Assembly (NCBI GenBank): GCA_016210545.1
Contig: JACQTY010000221.1
Span: forward strand, 1 to 38,873
Source of the DNA: Chloroflexota bacterium
Lineage (GTDB): Bacteria; Chloroflexota; Dehalococcoidia; JACVQG01
DNA: 38,873 bases
Reading direction: 5' to 3'
Position 1 is the first letter of the stretch; the number at the start of each line of letters is the position of its first letter. The notes beneath the pieces are model-generated. The model did not search any database and was not told the DNA's origin. It saw only the letters and a program-made list of their open reading frames with translations. This document shows positions 29,371-34,773 of the stretch, in pieces. Both the position numbers and the translations under genes were made by a program.

Positions 29371-30180
29371 GTGGTCGAAAGCAACTTTGTCACCCTGGAA
29401 AAGGCGCTGGCGAAGACTGAGGAAGACGCGAATGTCAGCATCAAGGCAGCACAAGCGGTTGTTGCTGCACTGAGAAGGTTCCACAATGCGGCCAAACTGG
29501 GGAATCTAAAGGAGTTGCACGCGACAATAGAGTCGGCGGAAAAGGCCGAGTTAGGGCTGCGGCAGCAGATCGCCACATCCAAAGCTGGATGGAACTTCAA
29601 TGAGGATGCTTATCTATCGGATGGCTCATTTGTAAGAGAGATTCTCGACACCAGTAGACAAAAAGGTGTCAGCATCTTTGAAAGGGATGAAAGGCTTTAT
29701 TGCTACCCTGTCCTGGTTCGGGTATTGCCGGGTGAGCGTGCTGTCCAAATAGAAAAGACCAGGGACAGAAGTCTGCGTCCTGCGGTTTTGGTCGACCATC
29801 TTAAGGAACTGCAGAAGAGACCTCCGCGTTTTCAGCCGAAGACTTTTCTGGAAGCTCTTTACGAGGCATATCGTGTGGCCGTGAGATCGCGCGAGAAGGG
29901 CCTGATGCCTGCTGCCGGCACTGTGATTCCACTTCTGGAAATATACGGCCTTTTGACTCTGCTTCCGGGGCAGTCTAAAGAGTACTCCCAACAAGAGTTC
30001 GCCAGGGATATTTACCTCCTTGACCGCAGCGGGGAAGCCGTCGCTAAGGATGGCGCCAGGGTTAGCTTTCCTGCCAGCACCGGCACTAAAGCGCCGAGCC
30101 GCGCCCTCAGTGTCATCAACGAGCAAGGGGAGGAAAAGCGGTACTACGGGATAGCTTTTTCGGCGCCCGGTAAGGAGTAG
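29371..30180 (+). CDS. Uncharacterised protein, first gene of the four-gene cassette
   Basis: GTG start with AGGAGG RBS at 29360; helical N-terminus; long intact ORF in operonic arrangement with the next gene (5-nt gap). Confidence 0.75.
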   Translation: MVESNFVTLEKALAKTEEDANVSIKAAQAVVAALRRFHNAAKLGNLKELHATIESAEKAELGLRQQIATSKAGWNFNEDAYLSDGSFVREILDTSRQKGVSIFERDERLYCYPVLVRVLPGERAVQIEKTRDRSLRPAVLVDHLKELQKRPPRFQPKTFLEALYEAYRVAVRSREKGLMPAAGTVIPLLEIYGLLTLLPGQSKEYSQQEFARDIYLLDRSGEAVAKDGARVSFPASTGTKAPSRALSVINEQGEEKRYYGIAFSAPGKE

Positions 30181-30185
30181 CACAT

Positions 30186-31178
30186 ATGCCTGCCTATTTG
30201 AAACCACAGGAATGGCTCACGGTGGTGCGCACGGAATACCTGGAGACCTTTATCCGCGGTGGGGGCGCCGCTGTAAAGTTCGTGATTCCAGCGGATGAGA
30301 TAGAGGCCGTTGAGGTAAAGAACGGACTGCGCAAGCTAGCTGAAGAAGGCGGCTTCCATTTCGCGCCCGTGGATGCTTCTACTACGAAGGTCCATCTCAT
30401 TGATCAAGTATTCTATGAGGTGGCTAGGAACGTGGACTGGCGGGGGCTTGCCTATTCTTTCCTGCGCCGCTCTCTGCAAGGTCACTACAAGTTGCCCGAA
30501 ACCCGGGAAGAATTTAACCTCAAGAACCTTGCGGTGTTGAACGAGTATGAAGAGCCGGACATGCGACTGGCTGTCAACCAGAGATTCAAAAAGTCACTAT
30601 ATCTTGATTATGCTATGACGCAGGAGTTCAGAATCGCTATGACGCGGCTGTGCGTTGGGCTGCTTGACCCGGCAGAGGTGTCTCCCGAGCTTTGTAGCGC
30701 TGTTATTGATTGGCTGCGAGGCGAGCTTCACAAAGTTTCTGTCCTTAAATCGGCGCTGATATTTCAAAAGATTGGGCGTCACAATGCTCGGCACATGCTG
30801 TTTTCACTATCTCACTGGCTTAAGCTCTCTGGCTCTGAGGGTTTGGTGCTACTGCTGGACATATCGCGCTATCTGCAAGAGAGGCCTAAAGGACCTGTGG
30901 AGAACCTGTACTATAGTAAGCCCGCGATGGTTTTGGACTGTTATGAGGTGTTGAGGCAGTTCATAGATGGCACAGACGAGTCGGAGTCTCTTCTTGTTGT
31001 AGTGGTGGCCCCTACTGGATTCCTGACCGACGAAAAAAGAGGTGTCGTCAAGATTTACGATGCCCTCAAGCTTCGTATCTGGGACGAAGTCTCGGACCCA
31101 ACGCGGGCTAATCCCTTGTCATCCCTCGTGCGTATTTCAACGTGTTCCCGTACAGCTACCGACAGAGGGCAGGCGTGA
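30186..31178 (+). CDS. DUF2791/BrxD-like P-loop-fold protein lacking a Walker A motif (candidate pseudo-ATPase)
   Basis: EYLETFIRGGGAAVKFVIP..., SLSHWLKLSGSEGLVLLLDISRYLQ, LLVVVVAPTGFLTDEKRGVVKIYDALKLRIWDEVSDPTRANPLSSLVRI resembles the DUF2791 architecture, but no GxxxxGK[ST]. Confidence 0.65.
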   Translation: MPAYLKPQEWLTVVRTEYLETFIRGGGAAVKFVIPADEIEAVEVKNGLRKLAEEGGFHFAPVDASTTKVHLIDQVFYEVARNVDWRGLAYSFLRRSLQGHYKLPETREEFNLKNLAVLNEYEEPDMRLAVNQRFKKSLYLDYAMTQEFRIAMTRLCVGLLDPAEVSPELCSAVIDWLRGELHKVSVLKSALIFQKIGRHNARHMLFSLSHWLKLSGSEGLVLLLDISRYLQERPKGPVENLYYSKPAMVLDCYEVLRQFIDGTDESESLLVVVVAPTGFLTDEKRGVVKIYDALKLRIWDEVSDPTRANPLSSLVRISTCSRTATDRGQA

Positions 31179-32452
31179 TGACAACCGACAAGAGAACTGA
31201 AAGTCGTCGCGCCATTGAGGCGCTGCGGGCGGGAGTACCCAACCAGGATGCTGTCAGGGCGTTGGGAAGTTCGCAACCGGACCTGGAGGCAAAATTCAAA
31301 CAGCAACTTCAAGTTGCAAAACAAAGTTTCCCCACTGGGAAACAGGCGCCGGGCATGCTGGTCGCCGGCGAATTCGGCGCCGGTAAGTCTCACCTGTTGG
31401 AACACTTTCAGAGCATCGCGTTAGCGGAGAACTTTGTTTGCAGCAAGGTGGTTATCAGCAAAGAGACGCCGCTGTACGAACCTGCCAAGGTATACCGCTC
31501 TGCCATGCAGGAAGCGCGCATCCCGAGGAAAATAGGACATGCCTTGTCTGAGATAGCTTCCAGCCTCCAGTTCGAGAGCCCCGGTTTCACCGACTTTGAA
31601 AGGTGGGTGAATTCTCCCGATGTCCCGCTGAGCACGCGGTTTGCGGCCTCGCTATACTTGTTTCGCCAGGAAAAACATCACGACGATGAAATGAAAGACC
31701 GCATCATCCGCTTTTGGTCGGGCGATCCTGTAGGGGTCGGTGACCTTAAGAAGTGGCTCAAGGAGATAAAGGAGGCCGCCACCTACAAAATTGACAAAGC
31801 ACCTGCAAAAGAGCTAGCGATTCAACGTTACTCATTTACGCCGCGTCTCATGATCGCGGCCGGGTACTCCGGTTGGGTGCTGCTCCTTGACGAGGTAGAG
31901 CTGATAGGTCGCTACTCGCTCCGGCAGAGGGCGCGCGCCTACGCTGAGTTGGCCAGATTCATAGGGAAACTTGAGGGCGCCAGTTTGCCAGGAATAACTT
32001 GCGTTCTGACCATAACAAAAGACTTCGAGAGCGCTGTGTTGGCAGAGCGCAACGACGCGGAGAGGATACCGGGGAAGTTGAGGGCTGGCGGCTCAGAGGC
32101 TGACCTATTGTTGGCCAGCCAGGCCGAGCGCGGTATGCAAATAATACGGAGAGACAAACTGGAGCTTGAGCCACTTACCCATGAAACGATTCACAAAACC
32201 TTCGATAGGTTGCGTGAAGTGTATGTGTCAGCTTACGGATGGGAGCCTCCCATAGACTACATTCAGCTAGACACGTCTATATCGGCACGTATGCGACAGC
32301 ACGTGAAGAGATGCATAGCGGAGTGGGATCTGACCCGATTATACCCCGACCACAAGCCCAACCTGGAAGTGCATGACGTCAGGCCCGGTTATGAGGAAAT
32401 GCCCGAACTAGAAGCGCCTGCTGAAGATTCTCCATCAGGGAACGAAGCCTGA
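31178..32452 (+). CDS. DUF2791/BrxD-like ATPase
   Basis: SRRAIEALRAGVPNQDAVRALGSSQPDLEAKF, Walker A GEFGAGKSHLLEHF, Walker B GWVLLLDEVELI; ATG at 31178 overlaps the previous stop (TGATG). Confidence 0.8.
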   Translation: MTTDKRTESRRAIEALRAGVPNQDAVRALGSSQPDLEAKFKQQLQVAKQSFPTGKQAPGMLVAGEFGAGKSHLLEHFQSIALAENFVCSKVVISKETPLYEPAKVYRSAMQEARIPRKIGHALSEIASSLQFESPGFTDFERWVNSPDVPLSTRFAASLYLFRQEKHHDDEMKDRIIRFWSGDPVGVGDLKKWLKEIKEAATYKIDKAPAKELAIQRYSFTPRLMIAAGYSGWVLLLDEVELIGRYSLRQRARAYAELARFIGKLEGASLPGITCVLTITKDFESAVLAERNDAERIPGKLRAGGSEADLLLASQAERGMQIIRRDKLELEPLTHETIHKTFDRLREVYVSAYGWEPPIDYIQLDTSISARMRQHVKRCIAEWDLTRLYPDHKPNLEVHDVRPGYEEMPELEAPAEDSPSGNEA

Positions 32453-32475: not shown

Positions 32476-34773
32476 TTGCCAGTCCCGTTTCGCGATGAAG
32501 ACGACGTTGGCAAACTGGGGCCCGCCGCATATCTCAAAATACAAAACTATCCGCGGGGCTATGCGGGGGCCCTTTTTGTAGTCAATGCTCGCGGGGAACC
32601 CCTGGAGTTCACGTATGCCCGCGTCGAGGCCCCTCACTCCTCAATGTGGTACCGAGACCATATCGACCTTCCCCGGCTGCGGCAACTAACGGAGTCGTTG
32701 ATATCTAGTTGCGGCCAAGCTCCGAGCTTGCTCTTGTGCCTGGATGACGAAGTGCCGGACGATGCCTTCCGCGACTGGGTACGGGTATCCCCGTCGGTCT
32801 GCCGGGTAGGTTCGAAATCCCGGGAATTCAATTCCCTTCCACAATCCCCAAAAGCAGCAGGCGCTATGGCGCTGGTTCCCGTGGATTGGCTGCCTCATCC
32901 GCTTCCCGAAGGGTCTTGCGAGCAGACGCTATTCCGTACGCTATTATCTCGCGGCTTGTTGTTAGAACCCTTCGAGCGGGCCGTGATGGGTTTGCAGCAC
33001 GTCTATCGGCGCCATCTTGTAGAAAGCGGGACCTCTATACCAGAACGAGGGCCCGCGACACTTCTGAAGGACGGAAGTCCTAGCGTGGAAGCCGTCGGCG
33101 CAAATAGAGGAGCCGACGACGGCGTTGATACGTTTCTTGCCACACCTGCTTTCTCCGTGAACAGTCAAATGTCCGTGACTGCAAGAACCGTTTGTCTGGT
33201 CGACACTGACCTGAAAGAAGACCCACCCGTAGGCTCGCCGCCGTCCAGTATAGAAGAGGAAATCTGGACACGGATTAAGCTTAAGGGCGCCAGTTCGGAC
33301 ATCCTATTACCAAAGAGGCTGGTTTATCTGCTCACCGTTTCAAGAGAAACCCTGCTCTCTCCTGAAGGACCTTTGGAATGGCCCGCGGTGTTCTTCCCTT
33401 ATCAGTTGGATGGTATCCGATTTCTTGTCTCAAGGGATGCGCTCTTGCTGGCCGATGACATGGGGCTGGGTAAGACCATCCAAGGTATTGCTGCCTTGCG
33501 CATACTTATCCATCAACGCTATGTTGAGAGTGCGCTCTTGGTTGCCCCGGTCGGTTTGCTCTCTCAGTGGAGAAAAGAGATACGTGCCTGGGCGCCCGAA
33601 CTGCGGATTTCTACAGTGCAAGGTCCCGCCGCGGAGAGGGCCTACCAGTGGTCAACGCCGGCCCACGTTTATCTGACCAGCTACGAGACCCTGCGGGAGG
33701 ACTTCACGGCTAACCCGCACTCCCCACCCCGCCGCCGGATTTGGGATGTAGTGATCCTGGACGAGGCCCAAAAGATAAAGAACAGGGACACGGAGGTGGG
33801 CCGCAAGTGCAAGCTCGTTCCGCGCCGCCGGGCCTGGGTCCTCACCGGCACGCCGCTGGAGAATACCCCGGATGATTTGGCATCAATTCTGGAGTTTACA
33901 CGGCCCCTGGCCCAGGGCGAAAAACCATCTAGGGTAATGCCCGGGCAGGAAATGCGGGCTATCCACAAGAAACTTCAGCTTCGCCGGAAGAAGGCTGACG
34001 TGTTGCCCCAGTTGCCGCCCAAAACCATTTCTACCATCGCCTTGCCGCTGTCAGGAGACCAGCGGGAGACCTACGACAGGGCAGAGAAACAGGGAATCCT
34101 CCAGTTGAAGGAGAAGGGACAGTCCGTACGTATAGAAAATGTGCTGGAGCTTATCCTCAGGCTCAAGCAACTCTGCAACTTCTGCCCCACGACGAGTGAA
34201 TCAGCCAAATTGGATGACGTCCAGGCACGCCTGGCCACGCTGGTCTCGGAGGGACACCGGGCGCTTGTCTTCTCCCAGTTCACAGACGACAGATTCGGCG
34301 TGCACGCTGTCGCTGACAGGCTCAGACAATTTCGGCCCCTTCTTTTCACTGGAGCCATGTCCCTGCAACAGAGAAGCTCAGTCGTGGAGCAGTTCAAGTC
34401 CGATCCAAGCCACAAGGTATTGGTGCTGTCGCTGCGCGCCGGAGGGCAAGGTCTCAATCTGCAAGAGGCGTCTTACGTGTTTCACTTTGACCGCTGGTGG
34501 AACCCCGCCGTTGAGCATCAGGCAGAGGACCGCACGCACCGTCTGGGACAAACCTCCCCGGTACATGTTTACCAGTACACCTGCGAGGACACAATTGAGG
34601 AGAGGATTGAGCAGATTCTCCAACAAAAGCAAAAGCTCTTCGACGAACTCGTGGACGATGTGTCCATCGACCTGAAATCCAGGCTCACTGAAGAAGAGTT
34701 GTATGGACTATTCGGGTTGACGCCCCCGCGCCGTCCGGGGGGGAAAGGCAACCCGTCAACAGGTTCAGGGTAG
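32476..34773 (+). CDS. SNF2-family DNA helicase/translocase with about 290-aa N-terminal extension
   Basis: TTG start; ADDMGLGKTIQGIAAL, VVILDEAQKIKN, VLTGTPLENTPDDL, RALVFSQFTD, HFDRWWNPAVEHQAEDRTHRLGQTSPVHVYQYTCEDTIEERI. Confidence 0.95.
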   Translation: MPVPFRDEDDVGKLGPAAYLKIQNYPRGYAGALFVVNARGEPLEFTYARVEAPHSSMWYRDHIDLPRLRQLTESLISSCGQAPSLLLCLDDEVPDDAFRDWVRVSPSVCRVGSKSREFNSLPQSPKAAGAMALVPVDWLPHPLPEGSCEQTLFRTLLSRGLLLEPFERAVMGLQHVYRRHLVESGTSIPERGPATLLKDGSPSVEAVGANRGADDGVDTFLATPAFSVNSQMSVTARTVCLVDTDLKEDPPVGSPPSSIEEEIWTRIKLKGASSDILLPKRLVYLLTVSRETLLSPEGPLEWPAVFFPYQLDGIRFLVSRDALLLADDMGLGKTIQGIAALRILIHQRYVESALLVAPVGLLSQWRKEIRAWAPELRISTVQGPAAERAYQWSTPAHVYLTSYETLREDFTANPHSPPRRRIWDVVILDEAQKIKNRDTEVGRKCKLVPRRRAWVLTGTPLENTPDDLASILEFTRPLAQGEKPSRVMPGQEMRAIHKKLQLRRKKADVLPQLPPKTISTIALPLSGDQRETYDRAEKQGILQLKEKGQSVRIENVLELILRLKQLCNFCPTTSESAKLDDVQARLATLVSEGHRALVFSQFTDDRFGVHAVADRLRQFRPLLFTGAMSLQQRSSVVEQFKSDPSHKVLVLSLRAGGQGLNLQEASYVFHFDRWWNPAVEHQAEDRTHRLGQTSPVHVYQYTCEDTIEERIEQILQQKQKLFDELVDDVSIDLKSRLTEEELYGLFGLTPPRRPGGKGNPSTGSG

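Follow-up and report, generated by a model that had tools for sequence, protein, structure and literature searches.

In ORC and in the clamp loaders, inactive AAA+ subunits without an ATP site complete the assembly. The closest described bacterial systems are the ATPase and helicase parts of Type 2 BREX and of Shango. BrxD of Type 2 BREX is an ORC/Cdc6 ATPase which was proposed to load the BrxHI helicase, and its arginine finger is located at the base of strand 5 (Rakesh and Krishnan, PMC12839542). Shango consists of SngA (TerB), SngB (ATPase) and SngC (helicase). The locus described here is a variant of these known BrxD/Shango-like ATPase and helicase modules, in which an intact and an inactive ATPase are encoded in tandem. 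For a paired inactive BrxD, no description was found in the open-licence literature.

The analyzed window is a stretch of 38,873 nucleotides from a Chloroflexota bacterium (assembly GCA_016210545.1, contig JACQTY010000221.1). The genes of the locus and the motifs used in the following are:

p1, 29371..30180, + strand: 269 aa, long N-terminal helical hairpin and alpha/beta part, no named family
p2, 30186..31178, + strand: 330 aa, catalytically degenerate BrxC/BrxD (probably ORC/Cdc6-type AAA+) subunit without C-terminal lid
p2 lost Walker A position PADEIEAVEVKN, 30288..30323, + strand: residues 35-46, located by aligning p2 with A- and B-type subunits whose motif is intact
p2 Walker B remnant GLVLLLDISRYL, 30840..30875, + strand: Asp kept, catalytic Glu gone, R at +3 conserved
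p2 box VII / arginine-finger position RGVVKIYDALKLRI, 31038..31079, + strand: R285, Y291, A293, L294, R297
p3, 31178..32452, + strand: 424 aa from ATG 31178, predicted active BrxC/BrxD-type AAA+ ATPase with lid
p3 Walker A GEFGAGKSH, 31367..31393, + strand: FGxGKSH in 31/31 orthologues
p3 Walker B WVLLLDEVE, 31874..31900, + strand: D, E and second E in 31/31 orthologues
p4, 32476..34773, + strand: 765 aa, SNF2 translocase (SNF2-rel_dom 1.5e-46, Helicase_C 1.5e-18)

The start codon of p3 is probably the ATG at 31178, which overlaps the p2 stop codon (TGATG), and not the listed GTG at 31142. The order p1-p2-p3 is conserved, and where the sequence extends far enough upstream, p1 precedes p2 in nearly every locus.

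An initial annotation of this sequence had described p2 and p3 as paired DUF2791-like ATPases, one active and one inactive. Both open reading frames were confirmed, as were the Walker A motif and the Walker B motif LLLDEVE of p3. The family assignment also held, since both proteins exceeded the curated cut-off of 22.2 bits for PF10923 (BrxC_BrxD, formerly DUF2791), p2 with 36.9 bits (E 2.7e-9) and p3 with 90.5 bits (E 1.5e-25); p2 is thus not unrelated to DUF2791. In PADLOC, p3 matched BrxD (1.3e-19) and SngB (3.7e-10). A profile-profile comparison aligned p2 and p3 in register, but the match was modest (E 0.0023, probability 12.5%). Sequence searches against the PDB returned nothing credible for p2 and only weak BrxC matches for p3, and no wHTH was found in either protein.

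Both ATP-site motifs of p3 are intact. In p2 neither a P-loop nor the catalytic Glu is present, and the Walker B reads LLLDISRYL, in which the Asp is retained. In the alignment, the sequence PADEIEAVEVKN falls on the motif G-x-Y/F-G-x-G-K-[ST]-H, which p3 and the A-type relatives with an intact P-loop carry. The alignment with many relatives confirmed the register in which the initial annotation had placed the lost Walker A and the missing Glu.

To what extent the loss is conserved was determined from approximately 53 p2 orthologues out of at least five phyla, none of which has a P-loop. Chloroflexota, above all Dehalococcoidia, contributed relatives, as did records with the titles Nitrospinota, Armatimonadetes, Bryobacterales and Pseudomonadota. 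A Walker A was identified in 0 of 35 aligned p2 sequences, whereas FGxGKSH was present in 31 of 31 p3 sequences, so that the loss in p2 is not due to chance or to sequencing errors. The P-loop was also missing from 18 additional p2 sequences, most of which came from the Armatimonadota-type sample. For the partner p3, FGxGK[ST]H was present in every sequence examined, and the DE of the Walker B was invariant in 31 sequences. An apparent loss of the p3 Walker A in Armatimonadota, obtained with a strict regular expression, was rejected, as the first Gly alone is replaced in the alignment and FGxGK[ST]H is intact. In the Walker B columns of p2, the Asp was found in 34 of 35 sequences, an Ile in place of the Glu in 28 of 35 and an Arg at +3 in 31 of 35. 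The mean conservation of the loop-equivalent columns was 0.31 in p2 (0.57 for the whole protein) versus 0.86 in p3.

A dying duplicate of an ATPase could look similar, given the lost motif and a p2 which is shorter than BrxD and without lid. Such local decay is extremely improbable, since the loss is common to all these orthologues and p2 is under purifying selection. When the window was compared with its closest relative whose codons could be aligned, p2 had a pS of 0.76 and a pN of 0.21, with similar values for p1 and p3, which indicates purifying selection. The resulting pN/pS of p2 is approximately 0.27, despite saturated synonymous sites. In addition, 20 columns are invariant among 28 p2 sequences, and p2 is retained in gene fusions (see below). 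Local decay was therefore rejected, and the Walker loss, for which the initial annotation had suggested a check in orthologues, is conserved. Judged by its sequence, p2 can be regarded as a putative pseudo-ATPase, since Walker A and the catalytic Glu are consistently missing while the fold is retained and purifying selection persists. The earlier proposal of a catalytic/pseudo-ATPase pair is supported in this respect, p2 being related to BrxD and its orthologues being without Walker A.

The loss is further characterized by the scores against the p2 profile. All matches of at least 194 bits were without P-loop, and a P-loop was present in matches of 177, 166 and 139 bits (L059, L034 and L148/L151, respectively), a split by which the loss defines a clade. 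Among A-type proteins, a P-loop was found only in a distant sister lineage with approximately 27% identity (L034, L059), in L148/L151 and in pairs with two active subunits.

For the phylogenetic analysis, a tree was calculated from 54 sequences after removal of the Walker motif columns. The p2 sequences are monophyletic (100/98) and their sister group (100/98) is formed by the A subunits of L034 and L059, in which the P-loop is intact. The p3 sequences are also monophyletic (99/99), with the B subunits of the same two loci as sister group (100/97); support for the deepest branches of the tree is weak, and there are some long B rows. In the A subunits of L034 and L059, GRPG[AS]GKTHLLRRL is kept and the Walker B Glu is changed (IDQMED and IDGLED, respectively), which represents a surviving intermediate with P-loop but altered Walker B. 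An old duplication thus gave rise to p2 as A subunit and p3 as B subunit, and A lost its P-loop a single time, in the common ancestor of a clade spanning several phyla. The simplest history is a duplication, after which the catalytic Glu of A eroded before P-loop and lid were lost. More distant loci (L060, L061, L063, L153-L156) encode a p1-like protein, A and B subunits which both have a P-loop, and a DEAD helicase, which in L060 matches SngC and BrxHI.

The most conserved block of p2 is box VII, where Y291 (35/35) and R297 (34/34) are part of the invariant motif Y-x-A-L-x-x-R. The motif is located ahead of strand 5. R285-G before this motif, R198/R202 and K31, which adjoins the lost loop, are also kept. 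The corresponding box-VII Arg was found in only 20 of 31 p3 sequences, the p3 alignment being less sure in this region. R297 is in the same position as the arginine finger of BrxD. Since box VII is a subunit-interface element, its conservation argues against p2 being a nucleotide or nucleic-acid sensor that has its own ligand and switches p3 instead of completing the p3 active site. The loop of the would-be pocket, moreover, is the least conserved stretch of p2 and is nearly absent in the structure model. On the other hand, the Walker B Asp, the Arg at +3 and K31 are all kept, and inactive P-loop domains recur in BREX components, where those of the STAND/P-loop type in BrxB and PglZ were proposed to bind ligands (PMC12839542). 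A sensor function, which the initial annotation had also mentioned, is rather unlikely on balance.

Fusions of p2 and p3 in one open reading frame of 772 to 909 aa were found in seven cases, distributed over three genomes of the phylum of L018. Three of the seven are located on one contig of approximately 3.8 Mb, which argues against an assembly error. On this near-complete contig (G580), a single p1 precedes a tandem of two p2-p3 fusion genes that differ from each other (L159:7339-13055), and a third fusion gene without p1 is found elsewhere (L160).

The structure prediction that had been suggested as a check was carried out with AlphaFold2 for the fusion of L082 and resulted in a confident two-domain model (pLDDT 92, pTM 0.91, 59 alignment rows), in which the strand order of the AAA+ core was found. 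The p3 half shows the normal order, with the P-loop between strand 396-399 and helix 406-419. In the p2 half, strand 26-33 runs into helix 36-52 with almost no loop, and the C-terminal helices of the lid, present in the p3 half, are absent. The best match in a PDB fold search was the BrxC ATPase dimer (9zdx_C, E 1.7e-4), followed by RdrA and archaeal ORC2 with lower ranks; only a portion of the chain is aligned in these matches, and their whole-chain TM-scores are low. A viral fold search with the model returned nothing at E<=0.001. Together, the fusion genes and the confident model support a physical association of p2 and p3, as far as can be predicted.

Based on these results, p2 and p3 probably form a heteromeric ORC/Cdc6-type (BrxD-like) AAA+ assembly with a catalytic p3 and a p2 acting as structural and arginine-finger subunit. 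A conserved mismatched pair in distant bacterial groups, sometimes fused, suggests that the dead partner has its own job. ATP would be bound and hydrolyzed by p3 at the p2-p3 interface. As a scaffold, p2 would probably provide the invariant box-VII arginine R297 in trans, as judged from its conservation and by analogy to BrxD, and would in this way resemble the inactive subunits of ORC and of clamp loaders. The two subunits may thereby be specialized in a complementary manner, with ATP held by p3 and both finger and scaffold coming from p2. Together with p1, the complex would recognize DNA or remodel it, and the SNF2 translocase that adjoins it in most loci might be loaded or regulated by it. 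The action would resemble that of the BrxD-BrxHI dyad or of Shango and would most likely be an accessory one on foreign DNA, with target and role being the least certain step.

The third component, p1, matched neither Pfam nor PADLOC, and no NCBIfam match was above the cut-off. Its AlphaFold2 model (pLDDT 92, pTM 0.81) had no match at E<=0.001 in a PDB fold search, and p1 may possibly have a new fold. In one locus, a second, partial p1 copy is located between p1 and p2 (L017:3064-4332).

Residues 1-178 of p4 match a separate small gene of the relatives, p4a, and the part from approximately residue 238 onwards matches their separate SNF2 gene, p4b. The p4a of the relatives (MPIPFRDADEL...GALFLVNARGEPLEFTYNR) belongs to no Pfam family and is joined with the SNF2 part in one open reading frame in the window. 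There, the SNF2 part is without the N-terminal segment WW...ARWLG of the relatives. Of the 25 loci for which 3 kb or more were available, 16 have a SNF2 gene directly downstream of p3, nearly always after p4a, and no dedicated SNF2 gene adjoins the other 9. In G580, a dedicated SNF2 copy was not found anywhere in the genome. Helicase loading therefore cannot be the whole story, and the G580 genome indicates a core of p1-p2-p3, with a motor that is optional or supplied in trans.

The system is present in 20 of 400 genomes of the Chloroflexota sample, and the GC content of the operon (0.54-0.57) is lower than that of its flanks (approximately 0.60). This patchiness and the lower GC content, together with the occasional multi-copy occurrence, suggest an accessory, horizontally moved system. 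A search of plasmid, phage and viral-contig collections revealed no carrier of the system. The flanking genes are mostly metabolic, and matches to defence families are scattered without a clear defence island. A housekeeping remodeller of chromatin or transcription, i.e., a machine similar to SNF2/RapA that has an AAA+ protein as cofactor and no link to foreign DNA, would agree with these flanks and with the lack of mobile-element matches. It is quite unlikely, though, in view of the patchy distribution, the low GC content of the operon and the multiple copies in G580. Moreover, the relatives of the system belong to BrxD/Shango-type modules, which are antiphage modules. An accessory role in the handling of foreign DNA or in defence is likely, if unproven, on this sequence-based evidence.

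Like BrxD and BrxHI of Type 2 BREX, the system combines a putative ORC/Cdc6-type AAA+ protein of PF10923 with an adjacent SF2 helicase (PMC12839542), but it has two ATPases, one of them inactive, instead of one, and a SNF2 instead of a Ski2-like helicase. Against the NCBIfam equivalog BREX_BrxD (NF033438), p3 and p2 reached 69.7 and 31.5 bits, respectively, which is far below the cut-off of 350. PglZ (PF08665), which together with BrxC and PglX marks a BREX system, was not found in the genome of the window (G000, 93.8% complete) and none was seen in the operon. Membership in BREX was rejected for both reasons.

With Shango, the system shares a PF10923-family ATPase and a helicase in a compact operon. 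It differs in having no TerB, two ATPases, a SNF2 instead of a DEAD/DEAH helicase, and the additional p1 and p4a. No TerB match in Pfam and no SngA match in PADLOC were obtained for p1. The best PADLOC matches of p4 were ZorD and DpdE, via the SNF2 core, and SngC was absent among the best 25 matches listed. Since no TerB was found and the helicase is a SNF2 protein, membership in Shango was also rejected. One genome with a p2 locus (G443) additionally carries a Shango-like locus (L079) with an upstream protein that is TerB-like by eye, a BrxD/SngB ATPase and a DEAD helicase.

The pairs with two active subunits (L060, L061, L063, L153-L156) have the same gene order and the same A and B lineages, but P-loops in both subunits and a SngC/BrxHI-like helicase. 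As far as found, these four-gene systems with a p1-like protein are unnamed. With extant intermediates on both sides of the loss, it becomes possible to test how inactive subunits arose in ORC-like loaders.

As is generally known of ORC/Cdc6 and clamp-loader heteromers, an assembly can be complete with some subunits lacking an ATP site. The pair described here differs in that it is encoded in a bacterial accessory operon and that no wHTH was found in p2 or p3. It provides a compact two-protein, naturally single-chain, bacterial case of an AAA+ pair which splits catalysis from structure. Tentatively, p1, the pseudo-ORC and the ORC subunit, often with p4a and SNF2, could constitute an undescribed bacterial system whose ORC/Cdc6-type loader has evolved a division of labour like that of eukaryotic ORC, the ATP site being in one subunit and only the trans-acting arginine in the other. 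The results suggest an accessory system which has no name as yet and is a relative of the BREX and Shango modules. Though a member of neither, it may, by analogy, act like their ATPase-helicase parts.
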